IMG/VR virus record: IMGVR_UViG_3300008261_000426
Coordinates: 1 to 24,531 of that record
Strand: one strand, 5' to 3'
Length of the DNA stretch: 24,531 nucleotides
Source of the DNA: a virus
Positions 4,543 to 16,132 of the stretch are shown here, in pieces; the stretch's first letter is position 1, and each line of letters opens with the position of its first letter. The notes below the pieces were generated by a model. It made no database searches, had not been told where the DNA came from, and saw nothing but the letters and a program-made list of their open reading frames with translations. Position numbers and translations under genes: made by a program.

Positions 4543-4568
4543 GAGGGGCGAGAAAAATCTCGCCCCTC
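4543..4568 (-). terminator. strong GC-rich hairpin after the secreted surface protein gene
   Basis: A perfect 11-bp stem, GAGGGGCGAGA and TCTCGCCCCTC, with a 4-nt loop, 14 bases after the stop of 4582..5586. No long T tract follows on the minus strand. In this AT-rich DNA such a GC-rich stem stands out; it may terminate or protect the 3' end of an abundant mRNA. Confidence 0.6.
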
Positions 4569-4581
4569 AACTAAACATTAA

Positions 4582-5586
4582 TTACTTAACTAAAGTAACC
4601 TTTGCCTTTGGATTTTTTGCATTCCATTTCTTAATTAGTGCATTGTATGCCTTCTTAAGATCAGCAATTGATTTGTCGGAAGCTGCTTTAGCTGTTGCTG
4701 CTGCAGATGCAGCCGCTGCCTTTGTTGCTTCATGTGCAGCTTTTTCTGCTACTAGTTCAGCTTTTGCCGCAACTAATTGTGACTGTACAGAAGATAATTC
4801 TGTTGCAAGATCACGAATTGATACTGTCTTAACTGCAACACCAACTGGAGATGCTAGTCCTGAGACTGCTCCAGCAACAGTTGCTGTTGCAACAAGTGTT
4901 AAGCTTCCAGATGTTGGAACTGCTACATCAACAGACTTTGTTCCAAGAACTGCTGTTGAAGTTGTTGCTGTTTCCATTGTATATGCTGTAGTAACTGAAA
5001 GTGATGATGTAATAACCTGTAGGCTAATTGCAGCACCTGAAACTGCATTACCAAACACGTCATATCCAGCAAGTGTTACCTTCTGTGTTGTTCCAGAAGC
5101 TGCTGTGTCTGGAGTTGTTAATGTGATTGCATTAAGGGCTCCAGCACCACCTTGGAAATAGTATGTAGTTGATGTTCCGCCAACTGTAACTACTACAGAT
5201 CCAGGAGTTGTTGATGTTGTAAATACATAAAATGTAGCAGTAGCTCCACTACCTGTATTAACAGATGCTGTTGAAGATCCTGCTGATGCAGCAACTGGAG
5301 CTAACGCTGTTCCAATTGTTGTTAAAATCTTTCCATTTGTAGCAGATGCTGTTACAACTGTATTGTTAGCAAGCGTGTCTACTACAATTGACAATGCTTT
5401 AGATGCTAGAACATTGTTCTGATCTGGCACTGGAATTGTAACTGGAGCAACTGATGTTGTTCCACCTACGGCTGCAACTGAGTTAACTGTAAGTGTTGTT
5501 GCAGCATTTGCTGGCAACACAGAAACAGTTGTTGCAATTGCTAGCGCTGCAGCAGTAGCAATTGATAGTTTCTTAAATGACTTCAT
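4582..5586 (-). CDS. secreted Ala/Thr/Val-rich surface (S-layer-like) protein
   Basis: The 334-aa protein starts with a clear Sec signal peptide (MKSFKK, hydrophobic core, cleavage after PANA near residue 28). Residues 30-250 are Thr/Ser/Val/Ala-rich and beta-like; a segment near 160-185 (TPDTAASGTTQKVTLAGYD, then VFGNAVSGA) resembles bacterial Ig-like (Big) domains. Residues 255-310 form an Ala/Glu/Lys coiled coil, followed by a basic tail (KKWNAKNPKAKVTLVK). There is no LPXTG motif and no C-terminal membrane helix. AGAGGAG lies upstream and a strong hairpin follows, which suggests high expression. It could be a host-derived surface protein exported from infected cells, or a virion decoration. 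The role is inferred. Confidence 0.65.
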   Translation of the reverse strand: MKSFKKLSIATAAALAIATTVSVLPANAATTLTVNSVAAVGGTTSVAPVTIPVPDQNNVLASKALSIVVDTLANNTVVTASATNGKILTTIGTALAPVAASAGSSTASVNTGSGATATFYVFTTSTTPGSVVVTVGGTSTTYYFQGGAGALNAITLTTPDTAASGTTQKVTLAGYDVFGNAVSGAAISLQVITSSLSVTTAYTMETATTSTAVLGTKSVDVAVPTSGSLTLVATATVAGAVSGLASPVGVAVKTVSIRDLATELSSVQSQLVAAKAELVAEKAAHEATKAAAASAAATAKAASDKSIADLKKAYNALIKKWNAKNPKAKVTLVK

Positions 5587-5635
5587 TTATTTATTTCTCC
5601 TCTTTTTAATCTGCCTCTATATTGAGCACAGAAAT

Positions 5636-5836
5636 TTAATCTAACTCTAGGACTCTAACATGGAAACTACATGGGTCTCCACCTTCATCCCATTCTTGCA
5701 TTTCTTCTTCTGACATTGGTGGAGCATCGTGTGTATTACAAAATACGTCTGAAACCCAACCTCTGTCGTAACCGTTCTTGAGCCATATTTCAAACTCTAC
5801 GTGGTTAATGTATCCTTCGTCTGGATCTAAATCCAT
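5636..5836 (-). CDS. small acidic hypothetical protein, 66 aa
   Basis: A strongly acidic, probably globular protein with Trp and Cys residues (IWLKNGYDRGW, VFCNTHDAPPMSEEE, DPCSFHVRVLELD). Proteins with this outline are frequent in actinophage accessory regions. The first ten bases overlap the 3' end of the thioredoxin gene, so the two are probably translated together. The two Cys could make it a redox partner of that thioredoxin, but this is a guess from position only. Confidence 0.6.
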   Translation of the reverse strand: MDLDPDEGYINHVEFEIWLKNGYDRGWVSDVFCNTHDAPPMSEEEMQEWDEGGDPCSFHVRVLELD

Positions 5837-6129
5837 TCTGAAAGCTCCTCTAGCAACTTATGTTTTGGCATAGCACCAATAATAGTTTTTACTGGAAGGC
5901 CATCCTTAAATAATACCATAGTTGGTATGGAAGATACAGAGAATTCTGAAGATTTTTTTAGATTCTCATCAACATTTAACTTACCAACCAGTAGATTTGT
6001 CTCATTTGAGATCTCATCTAGTATTGGAGAAAGTTTTTTACATGGACCGCACCAGTCTGCCCAAAAATCTATCAGAATTAATGAATTATTGCTTACAGCA
6101 TCGTCAAATATGTCGTCTGTAATAATCAA
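5827..6129 (-). CDS. thioredoxin
   Basis: The 100-aa protein has the full thioredoxin fold signature: the IDFWADWCGPCKKLSPIL active site (CGPC at residues 27-30), the VDEN strand, the cis-proline loop SIPTMVLFKDG and the GAMPKHKLLEEL helix. It lacks a signal peptide and so acts in the cytoplasm as a dithiol reductant. Phage thioredoxins can support ribonucleotide reductase or other redox proteins. The start codon appears to be TTG at 6129 with AAAGGAT upstream. It sits between a secreted subtilase module and a secreted surface protein gene. Confidence 0.9.
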   Translation of the reverse strand: MIITDDIFDDAVSNNSLILIDFWADWCGPCKKLSPILDEISNETNLLVGKLNVDENLKKSSEFSVSSIPTMVLFKDGLPVKTIIGAMPKHKLLEELSEWI

Positions 6130-6130
6130 T

Positions 6131-6337
6131 TTATTTATCCTTTAGTTCTTCTGCTGCTTCATTGAACTTATTCATGAAAGACTGAATTACAAAGAATGTT
6201 GTCTCGTGTGCATTAAGTCCTAATGCCTTAGAATATTCTTCTGTTCTATCTTCAATTGCAATTGCGTTATACCATTTTTGATACAACTCTGTTGCAACGT
6301 CTTCAATGATTCCTTCTAGGACTGTCATGTTAGCCAT
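6131..6337 (-). CDS. small helical protein, 68 aa
   Basis: It is predicted to be almost fully alpha-helical and acidic, without Cys or a membrane segment. Its first eight bases overlap the end of the subtilase gene (ATGGCTAA), and thioredoxin starts directly after its stop, so it is in the same transcript. Its size and helicity would fit a small binding partner or an inhibitor/chaperone of the subtilase. That is only suggested by position. Confidence 0.55.
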   Translation of the reverse strand: MANMTVLEGIIEDVATELYQKWYNAIAIEDRTEEYSKALGLNAHETTFFVIQSFMNKFNEAAEELKDK

Positions 6338-7262
6338 TTAGTGCTGCCGTAACATTCATAAGTTTTCCAGTCAATCCTGTTGGATTTGCAATTACAGTTG
6401 ATGTTTTAGACATTAAGTTATAAATATCTGAATAAGATAGGTTAGGCTTATTCTTTTTAATTTCTAGCCATTTAGCAGCAGCAATTTGAACTGATACTGA
6501 ACTTCCTACTGCAGATTTAATTTCGTTTCCTGGAATTGTGGCATCCCATTGACCTAGAGCATAGAAATCTGTCTTTAACACATCAACGTTTGCCCAAATT
6601 GGAATCTCATCATAATCTGTTGCTGCTCCAATTGAAACTGAGTCATCTATACATGCAGGCCAATCAATTCGCTTATAGTCTCTACCGTTTCCTGCTGGTA
6701 AAAATGTAGGGATTCCTACAGAAATTAATCGTTTAATCTGATTTTGTGTTGATACTGTTTTAGGGCAGTAATCTTTTCCTGGAAATAGATTGTGGTTTCC
6801 CTGAGACATTGTAACTGCTTGAACATTATATTTATCTTTATTATTAAATGCCCAGTTTAATGCATTAACTATAGGCAATTCTGTTATGATTTGTCGGCTT
6901 CCAGTTGCAGTATTTCCAACAATTCTAATAAAAACAACATTGATATCTGAATTATTACCAAGTAGGATCGAAGTCATTTGTGTTCCATGATCGAATCCGT
7001 TTTTATTAATAAACTTTGATGGGATTACAGATGCTCCAGGGCCTTCCATAAAGTTTTTGCCATTTGGACATGTGTTCCAGTCAAGAATGCAAACTTCTTG
7101 TGCAATTCTTCCAGAGAACATTGGGATAGATGTATCTAAGCCAGTGTCAATTACTACAACTGTTGGCTTTGAAACATTAACCTCAGTTTTAAGTGCAGCA
7201 TTAGCTGTTGTTGGTATGATTAGGATTGCAGCAATAAAAGCTGCTGATATTTTTTTATTCAT
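6330..7262 (-). CDS. secreted subtilisin-like serine protease (S8 family)
   Basis: The 310-aa protein has an N-terminal signal peptide (cleavage after TANA near residue 22) and the subtilase triad in order: Asp39 in VVVIDTGLD, His92 in GFDHGTQMTSIL, oxyanion Asn192 in LPAGNGRD, and Ser255 in the AVGSSVSVQIAAA block that replaces the usual GTSMAxP. Four Cys (58, 65, 166, 204) could form disulfides outside the cell. There is no evident long pro-domain, so it may be active on export. The ATG directly follows a promoter without a leader. It could cleave host surface proteins or mature the neighbouring secreted protein. An envelope role at lysis or adsorption is inference. Confidence 0.85.
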   Translation of the reverse strand: MNKKISAAFIAAILIIPTTANAALKTEVNVSKPTVVVIDTGLDTSIPMFSGRIAQEVCILDWNTCPNGKNFMEGPGASVIPSKFINKNGFDHGTQMTSILLGNNSDINVVFIRIVGNTATGSRQIITELPIVNALNWAFNNKDKYNVQAVTMSQGNHNLFPGKDYCPKTVSTQNQIKRLISVGIPTFLPAGNGRDYKRIDWPACIDDSVSIGAATDYDEIPIWANVDVLKTDFYALGQWDATIPGNEIKSAVGSSVSVQIAAAKWLEIKKNKPNLSYSDIYNLMSKTSTVIANPTGLTGKLMNVTAALNG

Positions 7263-7268
7263 ACTGCT

Positions 7269-7296
7269 ATTCTACTAAATATTTACAGGTTGTCAA
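7269..7296 (-). promoter_or_regulatory. promoter giving a leaderless subtilase mRNA
   Basis: Perfect TTGACA (7296-7291), a 16-bp spacer and TAGAAT (7274-7269), then six bases to ATG 7262-7260. +1 falls on the start codon. The region lies just after the stop of the 49-aa gene. Confidence 0.8.
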
Positions 7297-7299
7297 TAG

Positions 7300-7449
7300 C
7301 TATTTTTGATACCATTTATCGGCATCTAGGTTAGGCTTAATTCCGTTTGCTTCCATTATGTCACGGACATAAATTTCCATTAGCCCAAGTGTTGCTTCAA
7401 TTTCAAATAATCTTTGTTCTATTTCTTTAATTCTTTTAGAATTAATCAT
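7300..7449 (-). CDS. small coiled-coil-like protein, 49 aa
   Basis: The start is taken at ATG 7447-7449, which forms an ATGA overlap with the stop of the zinc-ribbon gene; the longer frame upstream would overlap that gene by 60 bases. Residues 4-35 form a charged amphipathic helix (KRIKEIEQRLFEIEATLGL) suited to oligomerisation. No family is recognised. Confidence 0.6.
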   Translation of the reverse strand: MINSKRIKEIEQRLFEIEATLGLMEIYVRDIMEANGIKPNLDADKWYQK

Positions 7450-7778
7450 TCCATATTCTCTCTGTCTAGTGGTGTAGGTGCTGTCGCCCAACTGCCGCAT
7501 TGAGCGCATTCCATTTCAAGAAGGTAGTTAGATATTTCGTAGTCTTCAAAAGATACTACAAGATTCCAAACTCTGGATCCACAAACACACTCGTGGGTTG
7601 GAGTTCCTCTTAAATCTAATGCATTCTCTTCTAAGTGCTGCAATTCTTCTAATAATTCTTTTTCTTCTTCTTTATCAATATAGTAGAATCCAAGCTTATA
7701 CTTATCCAAAACAGTTCTAACGACACCTATGCCTAGCAACGTTGCTGTGATAAAAGAAAATACTTTGAATAGTTTCAT
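7446..7778 (-). CDS. membrane-anchored zinc-ribbon protein, 110 aa
   Basis: An N-terminal hydrophobic segment (about residues 7-24) is followed by an acidic helix (DKEEEKELLEELQHLEE) and a zinc-ribbon-like domain with Cys pairs CVCG near 64 and CAQCG near 92. The segment between them (SRVWNLVVSFEDYEI) and the end ATAPTPLD are conserved in proteins of many actinophages as I know them, but with no assigned function. It heads its own leaderless transcript with the 49-aa gene coupled behind it. Confidence 0.7.
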   Translation of the reverse strand: MKLFKVFSFITATLLGIGVVRTVLDKYKLGFYYIDKEEEKELLEELQHLEENALDLRGTPTHECVCGSRVWNLVVSFEDYEISNYLLEMECAQCGSWATAPTPLDRENME

Positions 7779-7784
7779 ATACCA

Positions 7785-7813
7785 ATTATACTCTAAACTT
7801 GAATATATGTAAA
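7785..7813 (-). promoter_or_regulatory. promoter giving a leaderless mRNA for the zinc-ribbon gene
   Basis: TTTACA (7813-7808), a 17-bp spacer and a perfect TATAAT (7790-7785), then exactly six bases to ATG 7778-7776. The promoter overlaps the last codons of the proteasome-like gene. Confidence 0.75.
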
Positions 7814-8350
7814 TGGTGGGGCTACGCTCATTGAAAACTCTGTTGCAGCCTCTAAAGCCATCTTCATGCGTATTTTAGGATTTTTTAGATTTTTGGTTGC
7901 GTGTAAAGCTCCTAGTGCAAACATGCCACCGCTTCCTTCTGCCATATAATTAACTACATTTTCTCCAACATGAAAGTCATCGTCAATGGTAAATATTCTT
8001 CCACATACGCCTACAATAAAAATTCCACCCTCATCCTCTTGACCAGGATTAGACACGCTTCCAAAACCTTGCCCTCTGAATGCATCTTTAACTGAGTCTA
8101 TAAATTTAGTTCTCATAAATTTATCTAATCCAGCATTTGTTTTTGTTGGTGTGTAGACTGGTGGCTTCCATGCATACTGAAGAATTTGTCCCATTCTAAA
8201 ACTATCTGTAAAAGCAATGCCGTATTGACCAACTTTAAATACCTTTGGCTCTTTACGTGAAATTATCCATCCGCTTTTTTCATCAGATGCAGCATGATCG
8301 GAACCCATGTATACGGTCCCATTTTGAGCTATTGCAACTATACAGGTCAT
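7793..8350 (-). CDS. proteasome/HslV-like Ntn-hydrolase
   Basis: The 185-aa protein begins MTCIVAIAQNGTVYMGSDHAA. Thr2, exposed after Met removal, corresponds to the N-terminal nucleophile of proteasome beta subunits and HslV; Asp18 (GSDHA) and a Lys in ISRKEPKVFKV (Lys33 or Lys36) fit the remaining catalytic positions. Glycine-rich strands (GGIFIVGVCGRIFTID, AEGSGGMFALGAL) match the beta-sandwich core. Proteins starting MTCIV with GFTxSFRMGQ-like blocks occur in many phages. Known proteasome beta subunits work in rings with an ATPase; none is seen here. It may process phage or host proteins, or have lost protease activity. A leaderless promoter precedes it. Confidence 0.75.
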   Translation of the reverse strand: MTCIVAIAQNGTVYMGSDHAASDEKSGWIISRKEPKVFKVGQYGIAFTDSFRMGQILQYAWKPPVYTPTKTNAGLDKFMRTKFIDSVKDAFRGQGFGSVSNPGQEDEGGIFIVGVCGRIFTIDDDFHVGENVVNYMAEGSGGMFALGALHATKNLKNPKIRMKMALEAATEFSMSVAPPFTYIQV

Positions 8351-9146: not shown

Positions 9147-9435
9147 TTGGTTGACCTTCCAGTTCGCATCTTACACCATATGATTCAATTAATTTCTTTA
9201 CTTTATTGACGTAATCTATAACCATTTCTTTTTTTACACCATCGTATTGGATAAAGTTATCCTCATATAATCTAATTGCAAGAAATTCTGGATACTGTAC
9301 TATATCAACCATTAGATCGTATACAGGCTTTTTTAGCTCTCTTATTTTTAATGCCATATCTTTTGTATAAAAAACTGGTTTGTTTGGTTCCCCAGTCCAT
9401 TCATTTACACCATATTTAAAATGATTATTTTCCAT
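9130..9435 (-). CDS. hypothetical protein, 101 aa
   Basis: The start is set at ATG 9433-9435, giving an 11-base overlap with WhiB; AAAGGA lies upstream. A longer frame to 9489 would overlap the WhiB gene by 65 bases. The protein opens with an aromatic, Asn-rich segment (HFKYGVNEWTGEPNKP), then alternates strands and helices with a Lys-rich helix near the end. It resembles uncharacterised actinophage proteins in general shape; no catalytic motif is visible. Confidence 0.6.
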   Translation of the reverse strand: MENNHFKYGVNEWTGEPNKPVFYTKDMALKIRELKKPVYDLMVDIVQYPEFLAIRLYEDNFIQYDGVKKEMVIDYVNKVKKLIESYGVRCELEGQPSERIL

Positions 9436-9736
9436 TTTGTTTTTTAATCCTTTTCCATACTTCTGGTGTTTTATGTATGTTTTTACCATTGTCTGGTGAT
9501 CCAGAACTTAAATAAACTCCGCCCCAAACTCCATACTCATCATTTTCTACGCCTACTTCATAACACATTTTAGATACTGGGCAGCTCATGCATGCCTCAT
9601 CAATATTTTTTGCGATATTAATATCTGTTTCATATTTGTCAAAAAATAGATTGGTGTCCATACCTCTACATATTGCTAAGTCATACCAATCAAACTCATC
9701 TTTATCTATTCCAAGATCACTTAAAATGCTTGACAT
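9425..9736 (-). CDS. WhiB-type [4Fe-4S] transcription factor
   Basis: The 103-aa protein has the WhiB signature: Cys23 in AICRG, then Cys49, Cys52 and Cys58 in ACMSCPVSKMC (C-x25-C-x2-C-x5-C) and the GVWGG turn (69-73) that contacts sigma factor region 4, followed by a basic C-terminus for DNA. WhiB-like proteins bind the primary sigma factor of Actinobacteria and redirect transcription in response to redox state. This is the best single marker for the host phylum. Phage copies can interfere with host Wbl proteins. It overlaps both neighbours and is transcribed with the tRNAs upstream. Confidence 0.9.
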   Translation of the reverse strand: MSSILSDLGIDKDEFDWYDLAICRGMDTNLFFDKYETDINIAKNIDEACMSCPVSKMCYEVGVENDEYGVWGGVYLSSGSPDNGKNIHKTPEVWKRIKKQNGK

Positions 9737-11626: not shown

Positions 11627-11815
11627 TTATTCTGAGTCTTTTTCTGCTTTTTCACGTATACCTATGGTCAAAAACCATATGGCAACTGAGAGAAGGGTCA
11701 TATATCCAACTACTACTTTAGCGCTTCCTTCTAGGACTACCCAGGCTACAAAAAATCCTAAGAATGTAAAGTTTTCGCTAAGCATAGCCATTATTCTTTT
11801 CTTTAACCAGTTCAT
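11627..11815 (-). CDS. small two-helix membrane protein (holin/antiholin candidate), 62 aa
   Basis: A basic amphipathic start (NWLKKRIMAM) leads to two hydrophobic segments (about residues 16-33 and 37-51) and a charged C-terminus (IREKAEKDSE). The size and topology fit a small holin or antiholin. Its position right before the 114-aa holin candidate suggests a two-component lysis timing pair, known in many actinophages. Its start overlaps the stop of the surface-protein gene (TAATGA). Confidence 0.6.
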   Translation of the reverse strand: MNWLKKRIMAMLSENFTFLGFFVAWVVLEGSAKVVVGYMTLLSVAIWFLTIGIREKAEKDSE

Positions 11816-12399
11816 TATTTCCTCCTTATCATTGCACTACCAACAATTATTTGTCCAACCAAAACCGCAGCAACTAAAACTTCTTTTGCCTTTTGTCTTT
11901 CTTGTTGCGACATATCTGCACCAATGCTAGATAAAGCTAGTAGCACTTCACATTTCTGCTCTTCTGTTAAACCTTCAATTGCCTCATCTGGATCAAAACA
12001 TCCAGTAATTGCACCCACAAGTGCCGCTGGTGACTCTAGTGTTAATAATGCTGACGCTACCTCAGCTGTAATAACAACTGGATTACCGTTTAAATCTTCT
12101 CTTACTTCAACTGGAATTTGAGGTGGAAGGTCTCTATATTCTAGACCAGCAGCTGCTATATCTGATGCTGTTACTGGAGATCCTTCTGCTGCTGAAACTA
12201 ACGCATCTGCAACTAATTCTTTTTCTGCAAGTGTGAATGTGCCGTCTTCAGTTAATGCATCTGATAAATTGTTTACTTCTTCAGAAGTAATTTCTCCATC
12301 TGCAGATAAAGCTTCAAGTACTGCCTCTGTATCGGCTGCTGTTAGGTTTCCGTCTGCAATAAGATTTTCAACCACTTCAACTATTTCTTCTACAGACAT
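11815..12399 (-). CDS. C-terminal part of a split surface protein: helical DG repeats and membrane anchor
   Basis: This 194-aa frame is in phase with the PPAEE repeats just upstream and is best read as the C-terminus of the 12390..14132 protein after a frame change near 12564. Residues 10-65 contain three tandem helical units with DGNLTAAD, DGEITSEE and DGTFTLAE, spaced 17-18 residues apart like degenerate EF-hand loops. A Pro-rich beta segment, two Cys in a helical part and a hydrophobic end (VLVAAVLVGQIIVGSAMI) with RRK follow, a typical C-terminal membrane anchor with a cytoplasmic positive stop. The internal ATG has no clear Shine-Dalgarno, so independent translation is doubtful. Confidence 0.65.
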   Translation of the reverse strand: MSVEEIVEVVENLIADGNLTAADTEAVLEALSADGEITSEEVNNLSDALTEDGTFTLAEKELVADALVSAAEGSPVTASDIAAAGLEYRDLPPQIPVEVREDLNGNPVVITAEVASALLTLESPAALVGAITGCFDPDEAIEGLTEEQKCEVLLALSSIGADMSQQERQKAKEVLVAAVLVGQIIVGSAMIRRK

Positions 12400-14132
12400 T
12401 TCTTCAGCTGGTGGTTCTTCTGCTGGTGGTTCTTCTGCAGGTGGTTCTTCTGCAGGTGGTTCTTCAGCTGGTGGTTCTTCAGCTGGTGGTTCTTCTGCTG
12501 GTGGTTCTTCAGCAGGTGGTTCTTCTGCTGGTGGTTCTTCAGCAGGTGGTTCTTCTGCAGGTGGGTTTCTGTATATTCACTAACTGGTCCAGACCAATTA
12601 GCAACTCTAATAATATATGTTGCACCTTCTGTTAAACCAGTTAGTTCAATTGTATCTGTTGCACCATTTGTATTTAAAGTTTGTCCAGCATAAGGGTTTT
12701 CTGCATTTGGGTCTTCTGTAATAACTTGATAATACCAAGTGTTTGGCTCGTATCCTTGAGGCAATTCTGCTGCAATTGTTACTACAGATCCATTAATAAC
12801 TGGCTCTGCAAGTATTGGTGCTGGTGTTGGAATATTAGAATTTATTGTAGAAATCAAAATTGTTGCTTTATTGTTAAGCGTACTTTGTAAATTTGTTTTT
12901 GTTGTATTAGCTAAATTAATACCATTCTGAATTGTAGAAGTAGATGGTATGGTATTTGCTAACTGTTGATTGCTGTTATTAATAACAACCACAGTTGTAA
13001 TTCTTTGATTAAGGGCTGCTAATTGAGCATTTGCTGAATCTACTGTAGCTTGAATTGCTGAATTGTCTGTAGTAGTTGCTGGAACAGTATAAGTTCCTTG
13101 ACCTATATTTCCTTGAAATTCATTTATTCCGACAGTATCTTGATCTTGAATTTGTGTAATTGCTCCACCAGCAGTTTGTCTATAATTCCATCTTGTAGTA
13201 TCTACATGGGGTCCAACTCCAGATACAGTTGCTATCCAGGCACCAGTTGTTGGATTAACATCTGCATTTAATCTTAATTGTGTTAATTGTATTGAAGCAT
13301 CTGTTGTAGGATAGGCACGAAGATCCCAAGCAATGTCCAGGCTATTGGATGTTGTGGCGTATGTAATTCCAGATCCATAACTCCATGTTGTCCAATCCAT
13401 TCCTCCTACTGAAACAGATGGAGCATTTGGAGTATCCCAATAAACTTGACCCTCATTTGTTCCAAAAGTAATGGTTGCATTGGATCCAACATAAATAGAG
13501 TTATATGTTACTCCGCCCATCTGCATGCTAAATGGCAATATCATTTGAATGCCAACGTCATCCACGCCTTGAAGAACATCTCTAACAGTGGCAATTGTAG
13601 CCTGCAATGCATTAATTGCATCTTGTGCATTAGATATTGATTGATTAGCCTGTGAAAATTCTGTTGCAGCTGTAGAAATTGCAGTTGTAACTGCTGCCTT
13701 TGCTGTATTTGCTTCTAATAACTCTGATTGTGCTATAACAGTTGATATTGCATCAATTGCTGTTTGAGCATTTGTTACTGTATTTTTAGCATCAATAATA
13801 ACTGTGGAACTTTGATCTACTCCAGTAGCATTTGTTACAACAGTTATGGCATTATTTACTGTATTTACCGCCGCATTTGCTGTTGATACCTGTGTGCCTA
13901 CTGCTACAGAGGCCTGCTGAGCCTGTTGAGCTTCTGTTATTGCAGTTGGTACTAATGTTGCAACTGCACCTGCTGCTACTTCTGCTTCCTGAACTTGTGT
14001 TGTAGCGGTTCCTAAAGCAATTATGACTGACTGTTCTAATGTATCTTCAGCATAAGCATAATCTAAAGTTGAAACTGATAGCCAACCTAATATAACTAGG
14101 GTAAAAAGTAAAGCTTTTGTCTTTCTGGTCAA
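12390..14132 (-). CDS. large secreted surface protein, N-terminal part (frame broken near 12564)
   Basis: It starts at TTG 14130-14132 with a perfect GGAGG eight bases upstream. A signal peptide (cleavage after YAYA near residue 28) is followed by Ala/Thr/Val-rich helical repeats (30-185), a beta-sandwich-like domain (about 190-350, with Gly/Trp-rich blocks such as GGMDWTTWSYGSG), a second helical stretch and a fibronectin-III-like domain (about 438-520, ending with VANWSGPVSEY). From residue 523 the frame gives a nonsense KNHxx repeat. The -1 frame gives (PPAEE)n and continues into 11815..12399. The intact protein would be about 770 aa with a signal peptide and a C-terminal anchor. The break may be a real mutation, a programmed shift or a consensus error. 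Confidence 0.7.
   Translation of the reverse strand: MTRKTKALLFTLVILGWLSVSTLDYAYAEDTLEQSVIIALGTATTQVQEAEVAAGAVATLVPTAITEAQQAQQASVAVGTQVSTANAAVNTVNNAITVVTNATGVDQSSTVIIDAKNTVTNAQTAIDAISTVIAQSELLEANTAKAAVTTAISTAATEFSQANQSISNAQDAINALQATIATVRDVLQGVDDVGIQMILPFSMQMGGVTYNSIYVGSNATITFGTNEGQVYWDTPNAPSVSVGGMDWTTWSYGSGITYATTSNSLDIAWDLRAYPTTDASIQLTQLRLNADVNPTTGAWIATVSGVGPHVDTTRWNYRQTAGGAITQIQDQDTVGINEFQGNIGQGTYTVPATTTDNSAIQATVDSANAQLAALNQRITTVVVINNSNQQLANTIPSTSTIQNGINLANTTKTNLQSTLNNKATILISTINSNIPTPAPILAEPVINGSVVTIAAELPQGYEPNTWYYQVITEDPNAENPYAGQTLNTNGATDTIELTGLTEGATYIIRVANWSGPVSEYTETHLQKNHLLKNHQQKNHLLKNHQQKNHQLKNHQLKNHLQKNHLQKNHQQKNHQLKKCL
12410..12565 (-). repeat. ten 15-bp tandem repeats encoding PPAEE
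   Basis: Ten full copies plus a partial copy of a 15-bp unit (plus strand GGTGGTTCTTCNGCN). The units differ mainly at third positions of GCN and CCN codons in the PPAEE frame, so variation is synonymous there but changes residues in the KNHxx frame. This identifies the true frame. The unit length is a multiple of three, so gain or loss of copies would only change linker length. Confidence 0.9.
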
Positions 14133-14470: not shown

Positions 14471-14890
14471 TTATTTGATTTTAATAACTCTAGGCTTTTT
14501 CTCTTCAGGCACGTTACGAACTACGTTGACAATTAGCATTCCGTCCTTAAGAGTTGCCCCTGATACTTCCATGTATTCACCCAATGCAAATGATCGTGTG
14601 AACTTACGAGAAGCAATTCCTTTATGAATAACTTCTGCATCTGTTACTTCTACGATTTCTCCAACAATTTTAAGAGTTCCTTCATCAACTGAAAGCTCAA
14701 TATCATTCTTTGAGAATCCTGCGACTGCAAGTGATACTTGGAATGTATCTTCATCTAACTTTAATACATCATATGGTGGATATGTTTGACGTACTGAATT
14801 TTGATGCACGTCTGCCATTCTAGCCAATTCTCTATTAAAGCCAATAAAAAATGGATCTCTAAAAAGATCCATAGCAAAGTTTGTTACCAT
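14471..14890 (-). CDS. small heat-shock protein (Hsp20/IbpA-like)
   Basis: The start is ATG 14888-14890, with AAGGAG eight bases upstream. The 139-aa protein has an N-terminal arm with FRDPFFIGFNREL, the alpha-crystallin domain (YDVLKLDEDTFQVSLAVAGF, then SKNDIELSV; GIASRKFTRSFAL; GMLIVNV) and a C-terminal VIKI that fits the I-x-I anchoring motif. The order and wording match IbpA. These ATP-independent holdases bind unfolding proteins. Hsp20 genes are known in cyanophages and some other phages. Its leader contains hairpins that could sense temperature (14898..14944). It has its own promoter. Confidence 0.9.
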   Translation of the reverse strand: MVTNFAMDLFRDPFFIGFNRELARMADVHQNSVRQTYPPYDVLKLDEDTFQVSLAVAGFSKNDIELSVDEGTLKIVGEIVEVTDAEVIHKGIASRKFTRSFALGEYMEVSGATLKDGMLIVNVVRNVPEEKKPRVIKIK

Positions 14891-14897
14891 TTTATTT

Positions 14898-14944
14898 CTC
14901 CTTTTAAGCAAGTAATTTGGCTACCCCCATTTGGCAGGTAGCCA
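14898..14944 (-). promoter_or_regulatory. Hsp20 5' leader with ROSE-like hairpin over the ribosome site
   Basis: On the minus strand TTGCT (14911-14907), a 4-nt loop TAAA and AGGAG (14902-14898) can form the short imperfect helix typical of ROSE RNA thermometers: U-G, U-A, G-G, C-G, U-A. An 8-bp stem TGGCTACC/GGTAGCCA (14944-14937 and 14925-14918) caps the predicted 5' end. ROSE elements are known upstream of ibpA-type genes. The match is short and needs folding and melting data. Confidence 0.45.
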
Positions 14945-14948
14945 TATT

Positions 14949-14978
14949 ATTATACCATTTAGAGAACTAAGATTACAA
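14949..14978 (-). promoter_or_regulatory. promoter of the Hsp20 gene
   Basis: TTGTAA (14978-14973), an 18-bp spacer and TGG-TATAAT (14957-14949, -10 at 14954-14949). The predicted start near 14942 makes the 5' hairpin begin at or near the first base of the mRNA. No HrcA CIRCE or HspR HAIR inverted repeat was seen. Confidence 0.65.
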
Positions 14979-15386
14979 CTATTTTTTTGCTTTTGCTCTA
15001 ATTTTTGCTAATACTTCAAAGTCTTTTATCTTGGTTTCTCCCATGTAACCCCAAGCATAGCCCTCGGATATCATCTGTTCATTTATGGATACACTTGATC
15101 CGTCTAAATATACCCATCCCAATATTCTTCCGTATTTTTCTGAACTATCCATTTTTTCAGTTTTAATTACTACGCTTTTTGCATCTTTAATTTTTGACTT
15201 TAAGTATTCTTTTGATTCAAGTCCTAAAATCTTTTCTGCCTTATCAGATGTTCTGCTTTCTGGAGTATCTATTCCAGCCAGTCTAACTCTTGAGCTAAAA
15301 GATATGTCAAAACCTAGATCTATATCTACATCTATTGTATCTCCATCAACAACATTAGTTACTTTTTTTACATAGTATTCAAACAT
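14979..15386 (-). CDS. thermonuclease-like (SNase family) nuclease
   Basis: The start is set at ATG 15384-15386, inside a TAATG overlap with the endolysin stop, rather than 27 bases upstream. The 135-aa protein shows staphylococcal-nuclease motifs: VVDGDTIDVDI (residues 12-22), RVRLAGIDTPES (33-44, with catalytic Arg35 and metal ligand Asp40), a YGRILGWV block (Arg87) and EGYAWGY. It hydrolyses DNA or RNA with calcium in known members. No signal peptide is seen, so it would act inside the cell, perhaps on host DNA, or be released at lysis. Confidence 0.85.
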   Translation of the reverse strand: MFEYYVKKVTNVVDGDTIDVDIDLGFDISFSSRVRLAGIDTPESRTSDKAEKILGLESKEYLKSKIKDAKSVVIKTEKMDSSEKYGRILGWVYLDGSSVSINEQMISEGYAWGYMGETKIKDFEVLAKIRAKAKK

Positions 15387-16132
15387 TATAAAAACTTTAT
15401 TAATTCTGCCCAAGTTTTTGGACCGACAATTCCGTTTGAATCTAAATTGTCATGATTATCTTGAAATGAAATAACTGCTTTTTTAGTTATCTGTCCGTAG
15501 TCTCCGTCAGCCATTAAACCTAAAGCTCGTTGAATTACTTTAACACCTTCGCCTTTATTCCCTGGCTTTATTGTTCCTGGGAATGCTGGTGCTTCTTGTG
15601 CTGGAACTTTTGCCTTTACTTCATTACCTTTGTAATTTGGACGACCCCAACCAACAATACTTACAAGAACCTTAGCTTTGTTTGGCTTATAAGCTCTTGT
15701 CTGTAAACAAACTTCTCCGCCATTTCTTTGGCTTCCCTTTTTCTTTGATGAAGTATTTCCTTCAATAGTGCTAACAACTCCATCTGATTCAATTCCAGAG
15801 CAAATTCCTACGTGAGAAATTCTATCGACACCATCTCCTGGAAAATCAAAATACAGGATATCTCCTGGCTGCGGTGACTGTCCACAATCTGCTTCAAACC
15901 ATGTTCCCATTTTTTTAAATGCTGCGGCTCCTGCAACTGTTGAAACAGTATTAGGTATCTTCACGCCTGCTTGATGAGCACACCAATTTACAAACGATCC
16001 GCACCAAGCTAAGTAGTTAGCCTTAGTAAATGCACCGTATTTTGTTTCATTATCTTTTGGACCTTCAATAGTTCCTACTTCTTTTTTTGCAATTTCAATA
16101 ATTGCTGCTGCAGTACCTTTTTCTGCTGACAT
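15386..16132 (-). CDS. endolysin: CHAP amidase/peptidase with peptidoglycan-binding domain
   Basis: The 248-aa protein has an N-terminal CHAP-like domain with catalytic Cys44 in LAWCGSFVNWC, His107 in DRISHVGI and a polar IEGNT (Glu124/Asn126), plus the GDILYFDF strand. A short Pro/Ala linker (PAQEAPAFPG, near 177-186) leads to a PG_binding_1 domain (IKPGNKGEGVKVIQRAL, then DGDYGQITKKAVISFQ and GIVGPKTW). It cuts peptide bonds in the cell wall to release virions. There is no signal peptide, which fits holin-dependent export. The start overlaps the 60-aa gene (TAATG). Confidence 0.9.
   Translation of the reverse strand: MSAEKGTAAAIIEIAKKEVGTIEGPKDNETKYGAFTKANYLAWCGSFVNWCAHQAGVKIPNTVSTVAGAAAFKKMGTWFEADCGQSPQPGDILYFDFPGDGVDRISHVGICSGIESDGVVSTIEGNTSSKKKGSQRNGGEVCLQTRAYKPNKAKVLVSIVGWGRPNYKGNEVKAKVPAQEAPAFPGTIKPGNKGEGVKVIQRALGLMADGDYGQITKKAVISFQDNHDNLDSNGIVGPKTWAELIKFL

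Follow-up and report, generated by a model that had tools for sequence, protein, structure and literature searches.

A conserved gene module of large freshwater lake phages codes for predicted exported proteins and may remodel the envelope of the infected cell

The phage contig IMGVR_UViG_3300008261_000426 from IMG/VR (24.5 kb; positions 1 to 24,531 of the record, 24,531 nt, referred to as the window) carries at 4582-7262 a module of five genes, which is best explained, with a probability of about 0.45, as a core envelope-remodelling module of large freshwater phages. All five genes were found on the minus strand where the initial annotation had placed them. Read from 7262 to 4582, they code for a subtilase, a 68-aa protein, a thioredoxin, a 66-aa protein, and a 334-aa protein, and they mostly overlap or have a few bases between them. 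The following features were recognized in the module and around it.

4543 to 4568, minus strand: hairpin GAGGGGCGAGA-TTTT-TCTCGCCCCTC directly 3' of the 334-aa gene, likely a transcription terminator (read from the sequence)
4582 to 5586, minus strand: predicted exported protein of 334 aa (30 relatives, alignment A1, AlphaFold model, swapped alleles)
5597 to 5603, minus strand: strong Shine-Dalgarno sequence AGAGGAG of the 334-aa gene ([AG]AGGAG ahead of the start in 54 of 58 homologues)
5610 to 5632, minus strand: conserved hairpin TCTGTGCTC...GAGGCAGA in the 5'-UTR of the 334-aa gene (covariation)
5636 to 5836, minus strand: conserved acidic protein of 66 aa with two Cys (no family match; synteny)
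5827 to 6129, minus strand: thioredoxin with WCGPC motif and no signal peptide (Pfam 1.8e-26; TIGR01068 109 bits, cut-off 96.8)
6131 to 6337, minus strand: conserved protein of 68 aa without signal peptide (no family match; synteny)
6330 to 7262, minus strand: predicted exported subtilase of 310 aa (Pfam Peptidase_S8, alignment A2, model and Foldseek, 46 relatives)
7269 to 7296, minus strand: predicted subtilase promoter TTGACA-N16-TAGAAT, 6 nt upstream of the ATG
7793 to 8350, minus strand: HslV/proteasome-like protein whose gene is conserved upstream of the module and was used as anchor (phrog_1040, 2e-19)
9425 to 9736, minus strand: WhiB transcription factor, an actinophage marker, a short way upstream of the module (Pfam Whib 1.4e-12)
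11815 to 14132, minus strand: third predicted exported protein, which a frame break within (PAEEP)n divides into the ORFs 12390-14132 and 11815-12399
15386 to 16132: CHAP endolysin, in the same window and apart from the subtilase

Judged by its genes, the phage is related to Stanwilliamsviridae and probably an actinophage. Over its full length, the terminase of the window is 63% identical to that of Gilson and other Streptomyces phages of the Stanwilliamsviridae. The gene preceding the terminase has matches only in Streptomyces and Rhodococcus phages. The sister contigs G007 and G008 (112 and 120 kb) contain portal, capsid, tail, and replication genes of the same lineage, and with the portal, capsid, and tail genes taken from them a homologous terminase and head/tail set is shared with that family. 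Because of the relatives of the terminase and its upstream gene in Streptomyces and Rhodococcus phages, and of the WhiB gene, the host is probably a freshwater actinobacterium, and the group as a whole probably consists of large (about 110-120 kb) freshwater lake phages infecting actinobacteria. WhiB is treated as an actinophage marker in PMC10202952. The group is abundant in lake viromes, with at least 600 matches in a terminase scan and 320 relatives of the HslV-like gene.

The 334-aa protein and the subtilase, used as queries, recovered 30 and 46 viral loci, respectively. Since scans with either protein are biased towards the query, the neighbouring HslV-like gene was taken as the anchor, and the best 80 of its 320 relatives gave 66 contigs with a complete region, the window included. 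Both exported genes are present in the same order on 64 of these 66 contigs; the 334-aa gene stands alone on two and is missing from none. Because nearly all contigs found through this independent anchor (64 of 66) retain the gene order, the module is not a chance assembly and, on gene order, appears to be a core of this lake phage group. The anchored contigs include near-duplicates; 58 distinct module copies were used for comparisons. In the two long contigs, G007 and G008, a distance of at least 30 kb separates the module from the genes for portal, capsid, and tail. No match to the 334-aa protein or the subtilase was found in 50,697 GenBank phage records, defence-system models gave no match, and a literature search on phage-encoded secreted subtilases or surface proteins returned nothing matching. 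The pair had been called uncommon for a phage, which is true of GenBank phages but not of this lake group, where it is standard. The thioredoxin recognized earlier is placed in its family by the WCGPC motif and a TIGR01068 score above the cut-off, and the small acidic protein with two Cys is likewise present and conserved. The HslV-like gene is the most conserved one near the module (mean identity 0.88, dN/dS 0.04). Also conserved beside the module is a 110-aa protein (7446-7778, minus strand), which has a hydrophobic helix at its N-terminus and the pattern CxC...CxxC. Upstream of the module, Hsp20 and a protein resembling staphylococcal nuclease, the latter without signal peptide, are conserved as well (14471-15413, minus strand).

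The subtilase matches Pfam Peptidase_S8 (PF00082) with E 9e-10, beyond the curated cut-off. It has a predicted signal peptide at about residues 1-23 and a catalytic domain from about residue 30, and it is without membrane anchor. The complete triad and the four cysteines described earlier are confirmed, as D39, H92, and S255 with the oxyanion Asn N192, and also C58, C65, C166, and C204, are invariant both in 21 relatives (alignment A2) and in 58 of 58 module copies. Because these residues are kept in all copies at a mean identity of 52%, the subtilase (median dN/dS 0.12) appears to be kept by selection as a protease, with activity predicted. Its AlphaFold model has a mean pLDDT of 88 and the fold of subtilisin BPN', with Foldseek E 2.6e-15 to BPN' variants; triad, oxyanion Asn, and modelled fold together place it in peptidase family S8. 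An I9-type propeptide is absent according to both sequence alignment and model, because the catalytic Asp at residue 39 leaves no space for it past the signal peptide. Such a propeptide is usual in secreted subtilisins, but it is no requirement for S8 membership. On plasmids, the enzyme matched only bacterial S8 proteins with about 25% identity. As the predicted promoter ends 6 nt ahead of the ATG, the subtilase mRNA is probably leaderless and transcribed from a promoter of the host sigma factor type, and early expression of the gene is inferred. The strict promoter pattern with a spacer of 16-19 precedes 50 of the 58 subtilase homologues, and seven more have TTGACG when inspected by eye. Within the window, a pattern scan found this arrangement near an ATG at the subtilase only.

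The 334-aa protein begins with a predicted signal peptide (about 1-28), followed by two beta-sandwich regions (about 30-258) and a 65-aa helix (260-324), and has a conserved basic C-tail (306-334). The mean pLDDT of its AlphaFold model is moderate, 76. Neither Pfam nor PHROG has a family for it, and a plasmid search gave no relative; Cob_adeno_trans, DUF3138, and other weak Pfam matches were rejected as chance matches to the Ala-rich helix. Foldseek placed phage tail and Big-1 proteins among the matches of the model, with TM-scores of 0.35 or lower. Similarity to tail or decoration proteins had been named in the initial annotation as an argument against a role at the cell surface. Searches of PHROG, Pfam, and GenBank phages revealed no kinship with a known family of this kind, only generic Ig-fold similarity, and on G007 and G008 the gene is located outside the structural cluster. 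In its 5'-UTR hairpin, 94.6% of cells are paired and four pairs are changed on both sides, a covariation reached in 0 of 500 shuffles; the hairpin also outscores nearly all of the 500 shuffles and all slid versions. On the two long contigs, the hairpin-plus-Shine-Dalgarno pattern occurs at the 334-aa gene only. Being directly ahead of the ribosome site, the hairpin could stabilise or regulate the mRNA. A 3' hairpin follows the gene in most homologues.

Comparison of closely related contigs indicates that the mature part of the 334-aa protein is swapped as a cassette, regardless of the subtilase type. Contigs L112 and L115 are mostly 94-100% identical over 7 kb, with a drop to about 45-65% inside the 334-aa gene that extends from the signal-peptide region to just short of the C-tail; the same drop is seen in L144/L170 and L155/L168. 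The pair L112/L124 is the opposite, with a diverged subtilase and a 334-aa gene about 85% identical. At 60% identity, the 334-aa homologues form three large types (27, 12, and 12 of 58) that are scattered over the subtilase types, and across pairs of copies the identity of one protein shows no correlation with that of the other (Spearman 0.06 for 58 copies, a descriptive value, as the pairs are not independent). Median dN/dS falls from 0.24 in the 334-aa gene to 0.12 in the subtilase and 0.04 in the HslV-like gene. Swapping of this kind would be expected of an exposed protein under diversifying selection.

The 334-aa protein is found without the subtilase in L098, L134, and the phages of L009 and L013. 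Homologues 48-50% identical are present on L009 and L010, which belong to phages of 55-57% GC with WhiB and no matching terminase (the L009 contig is without subtilase); this points to transfer of the gene between unrelated phage lineages. In the subclade of L003, L008, and L011, the gene directly follows the terminase gene. Because of its presence in L009 and L010 and its position in this subclade, the 334-aa protein appears to be the more mobile and more central part of the pair. Its occurrence without the subtilase, together with the unmatched types, weakens the mechanism proposed earlier, in which the protease removes surface proteins and the new protein takes their place. A scan of genome contigs with two short motifs, which would miss distant host relatives, revealed no host counterpart. 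Host origin was rejected, as the sole genome-scan match, L078, has the neighbours and terminase of this phage group. L078 (CAINGU010000031.1) is a 110-kb contig with the group's terminase and the 334-aa gene that the GTDB set places in a cyanobacterial MAG, and it is probably mis-binned phage DNA and no host gene. No relatives were found in 19 other genomes of the family of this MAG or in control genomes.

A signal-peptide heuristic was passed by 54 of 58 subtilases and 49 of 58 homologues of the 334-aa protein, and by none of the 58 thioredoxins or the 58 HslV-like proteins. The mature subtilase and 334-aa protein have no membrane segment. Both proteins thus look Sec-exported, as predicted earlier, but a count of two is too low, since a third one is coded at 11815-14132. 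In the whole-contig listing, the heuristic missed this protein and the 334-aa protein of G008, the latter owing to one of its threshold or start-codon rules, and its count is therefore a lower bound on exported proteins. The two ORFs of the third protein are two frames of one gene, with the frame shifting within the (PAEEP)n tract; the break may exist in the phage itself or stem from faulty assembly of the repeat. In relatives, a single ORF of 570-970 aa codes for the protein, which has a signal peptide and a Pro-rich tract and, at the C-terminus, a hydrophobic segment together with a basic tail; this ORF is intact in at least 47 of the 53 contigs that reach far enough upstream (composition filter, no profile). 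Pfam recognized nothing in the protein beyond an extensin-like stretch rich in Pro and an FN3 below the threshold. PHROG matches to head protease and tail proteins were dismissed as weak and confined to low-complexity or helical parts. From this layout, it is probably a wall-spanning, membrane-anchored surface protein.

Surface remodelling was weighed against other uses of the same genes. The predicted secreted, unanchored protease could be an aid to release, digesting a proteinaceous outer layer of the host once the CHAP endolysin, coded in the same window, has cut the wall, with the 334-aa protein keeping the cell stable up to that point. This is unlikely, as the subtilase is apart from the endolysin, its own host-type and probably leaderless promoter suggests early and not late expression, and the allele types of the 334-aa protein are left unexplained. 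Virion receptor-binding proteins likewise show cassette swapping, and the swapped part with a conserved tail would suit a decoration or receptor-binding protein of the virion, with heads that bind host surfaces and an incidental N-terminal hydrophobic segment. Virions often carry Ig-like folds, and proteins of phage tails and of the Big-1 type are among the structural matches. A virion protein is nevertheless quite unlikely, since 49 of 58 copies have a clear Sec-type N-terminus, at least 30 kb separate the gene from the structural cluster, fold similarity is weak (TM-scores not above 0.35), and no PHROG family was matched.

The lack of an I9-type propeptide, with the catalytic Asp already at residue 39, and the strict co-occurrence of both genes within the main clade would fit a biochemical pair, in which the 334-aa protein substitutes for the propeptide as a trans-acting chaperone or serves as inhibitor or substrate of the subtilase. 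Such a pair is improbable, given that phages without the subtilase retain the 334-aa protein and that the types of the two proteins assort independently (Spearman 0.06). Very improbable is a shield that, up to the time of lysis, would guard the infected cell against grazing by protists or another attack from outside. Genes affecting grazers are proposed for freshwater phages by Kavagutti et al. 2019 (PMC6802176), but no sequence feature of the exported set points there, and grazing defence alone would not favour discrete allele types common to several phages.

Remodelling of the surface of the infected cell is the preferred reading. Of the function suggested in the initial annotation, this general part is in line with predicted export, distance from structural genes, and swapping, but the single remove-and-replace device is not supported. 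The module proteins probably act outside the infected cell, with export predicted. Early in infection, the subtilase would be exported and, having no long propeptide, would fold with the help of disulfides; it may then trim or mature proteins beyond the membrane. The 334-aa protein would be produced in quantity, exported, and held on the cell surface by its coiled-coil and basic tail, displaying the beta-sandwich heads; together with the anchored Pro-rich protein it would alter what the surface presents outside. As the 334-aa protein occurs without the subtilase, the two need not cooperate. The selective benefit could be that adsorption of competing phages is blocked; exclusion of other phages is a tentative choice of purpose, made because it is most in keeping with the swappable allele types. 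A further-reaching and rather unlikely version is a phage-coded "serotype", in which an abundant exported protein with interchangeable heads, the phage protease, and the wall-spanning protein replace the native surface and decide which other phages adsorb, with allele types spread by cassette exchange. Predicted exported proteins are coded by nearly every member of the group with a complete region, and one of them has been swapped even where genomes are otherwise almost the same. Should these proteins indeed change the surface of infected freshwater actinobacteria, phage competition outside the cell would be widespread, and natural pairs that differ by such a swap allow this to be tested directly.

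Phage superinfection exclusion proteins would be similar in being phage proteins at the envelope of the infected cell, the location predicted here, but no sequence relation to the module proteins was found. With subtilisin BPN' and family S8, the subtilase has in common the fold, the Asp-His-Ser triad, the oxyanion Asn, and the secretion signal. It is only about 20% identical to BPN' and differs in four invariant Cys and in having no long N-terminal propeptide. Unlike S8 members in general, it is a core gene of a phage group and without close kin in the 50,697 GenBank phages. Big-1/invasin-type Ig domains resemble the 334-aa protein in beta-sandwich repeats and a DVFGN-like turn, and invasin and InvE are among the Foldseek matches, but TM-scores are 0.22-0.27 and Pfam Big_1 was found in 0 of 16 members. 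Bacterial adhesins of the invasin type are anchored by a beta-barrel, whereas the 334-aa protein has a C-terminal helix instead. Freshwater actinophages encoding whiB were reportedly obtained from metagenomes by Ghai in 2017. Chen & Banfield 2024 (PMC10914622) describe such metagenomic phages, with the same habitat and the same WhiB marker. An exported protease with a swappable surface protein is not mentioned in the searched parts of the freshwater actinophage literature, PMC10914622 included. The Stanwilliamsviridae (Gilson and others) share with the present phages the terminase, the order of exonuclease, RuvC, and upstream gene, the conserved portal/capsid/tail set, WhiB, and thioredoxin; they are without the subtilase and the 334-aa protein, whereas the lake phages have both.
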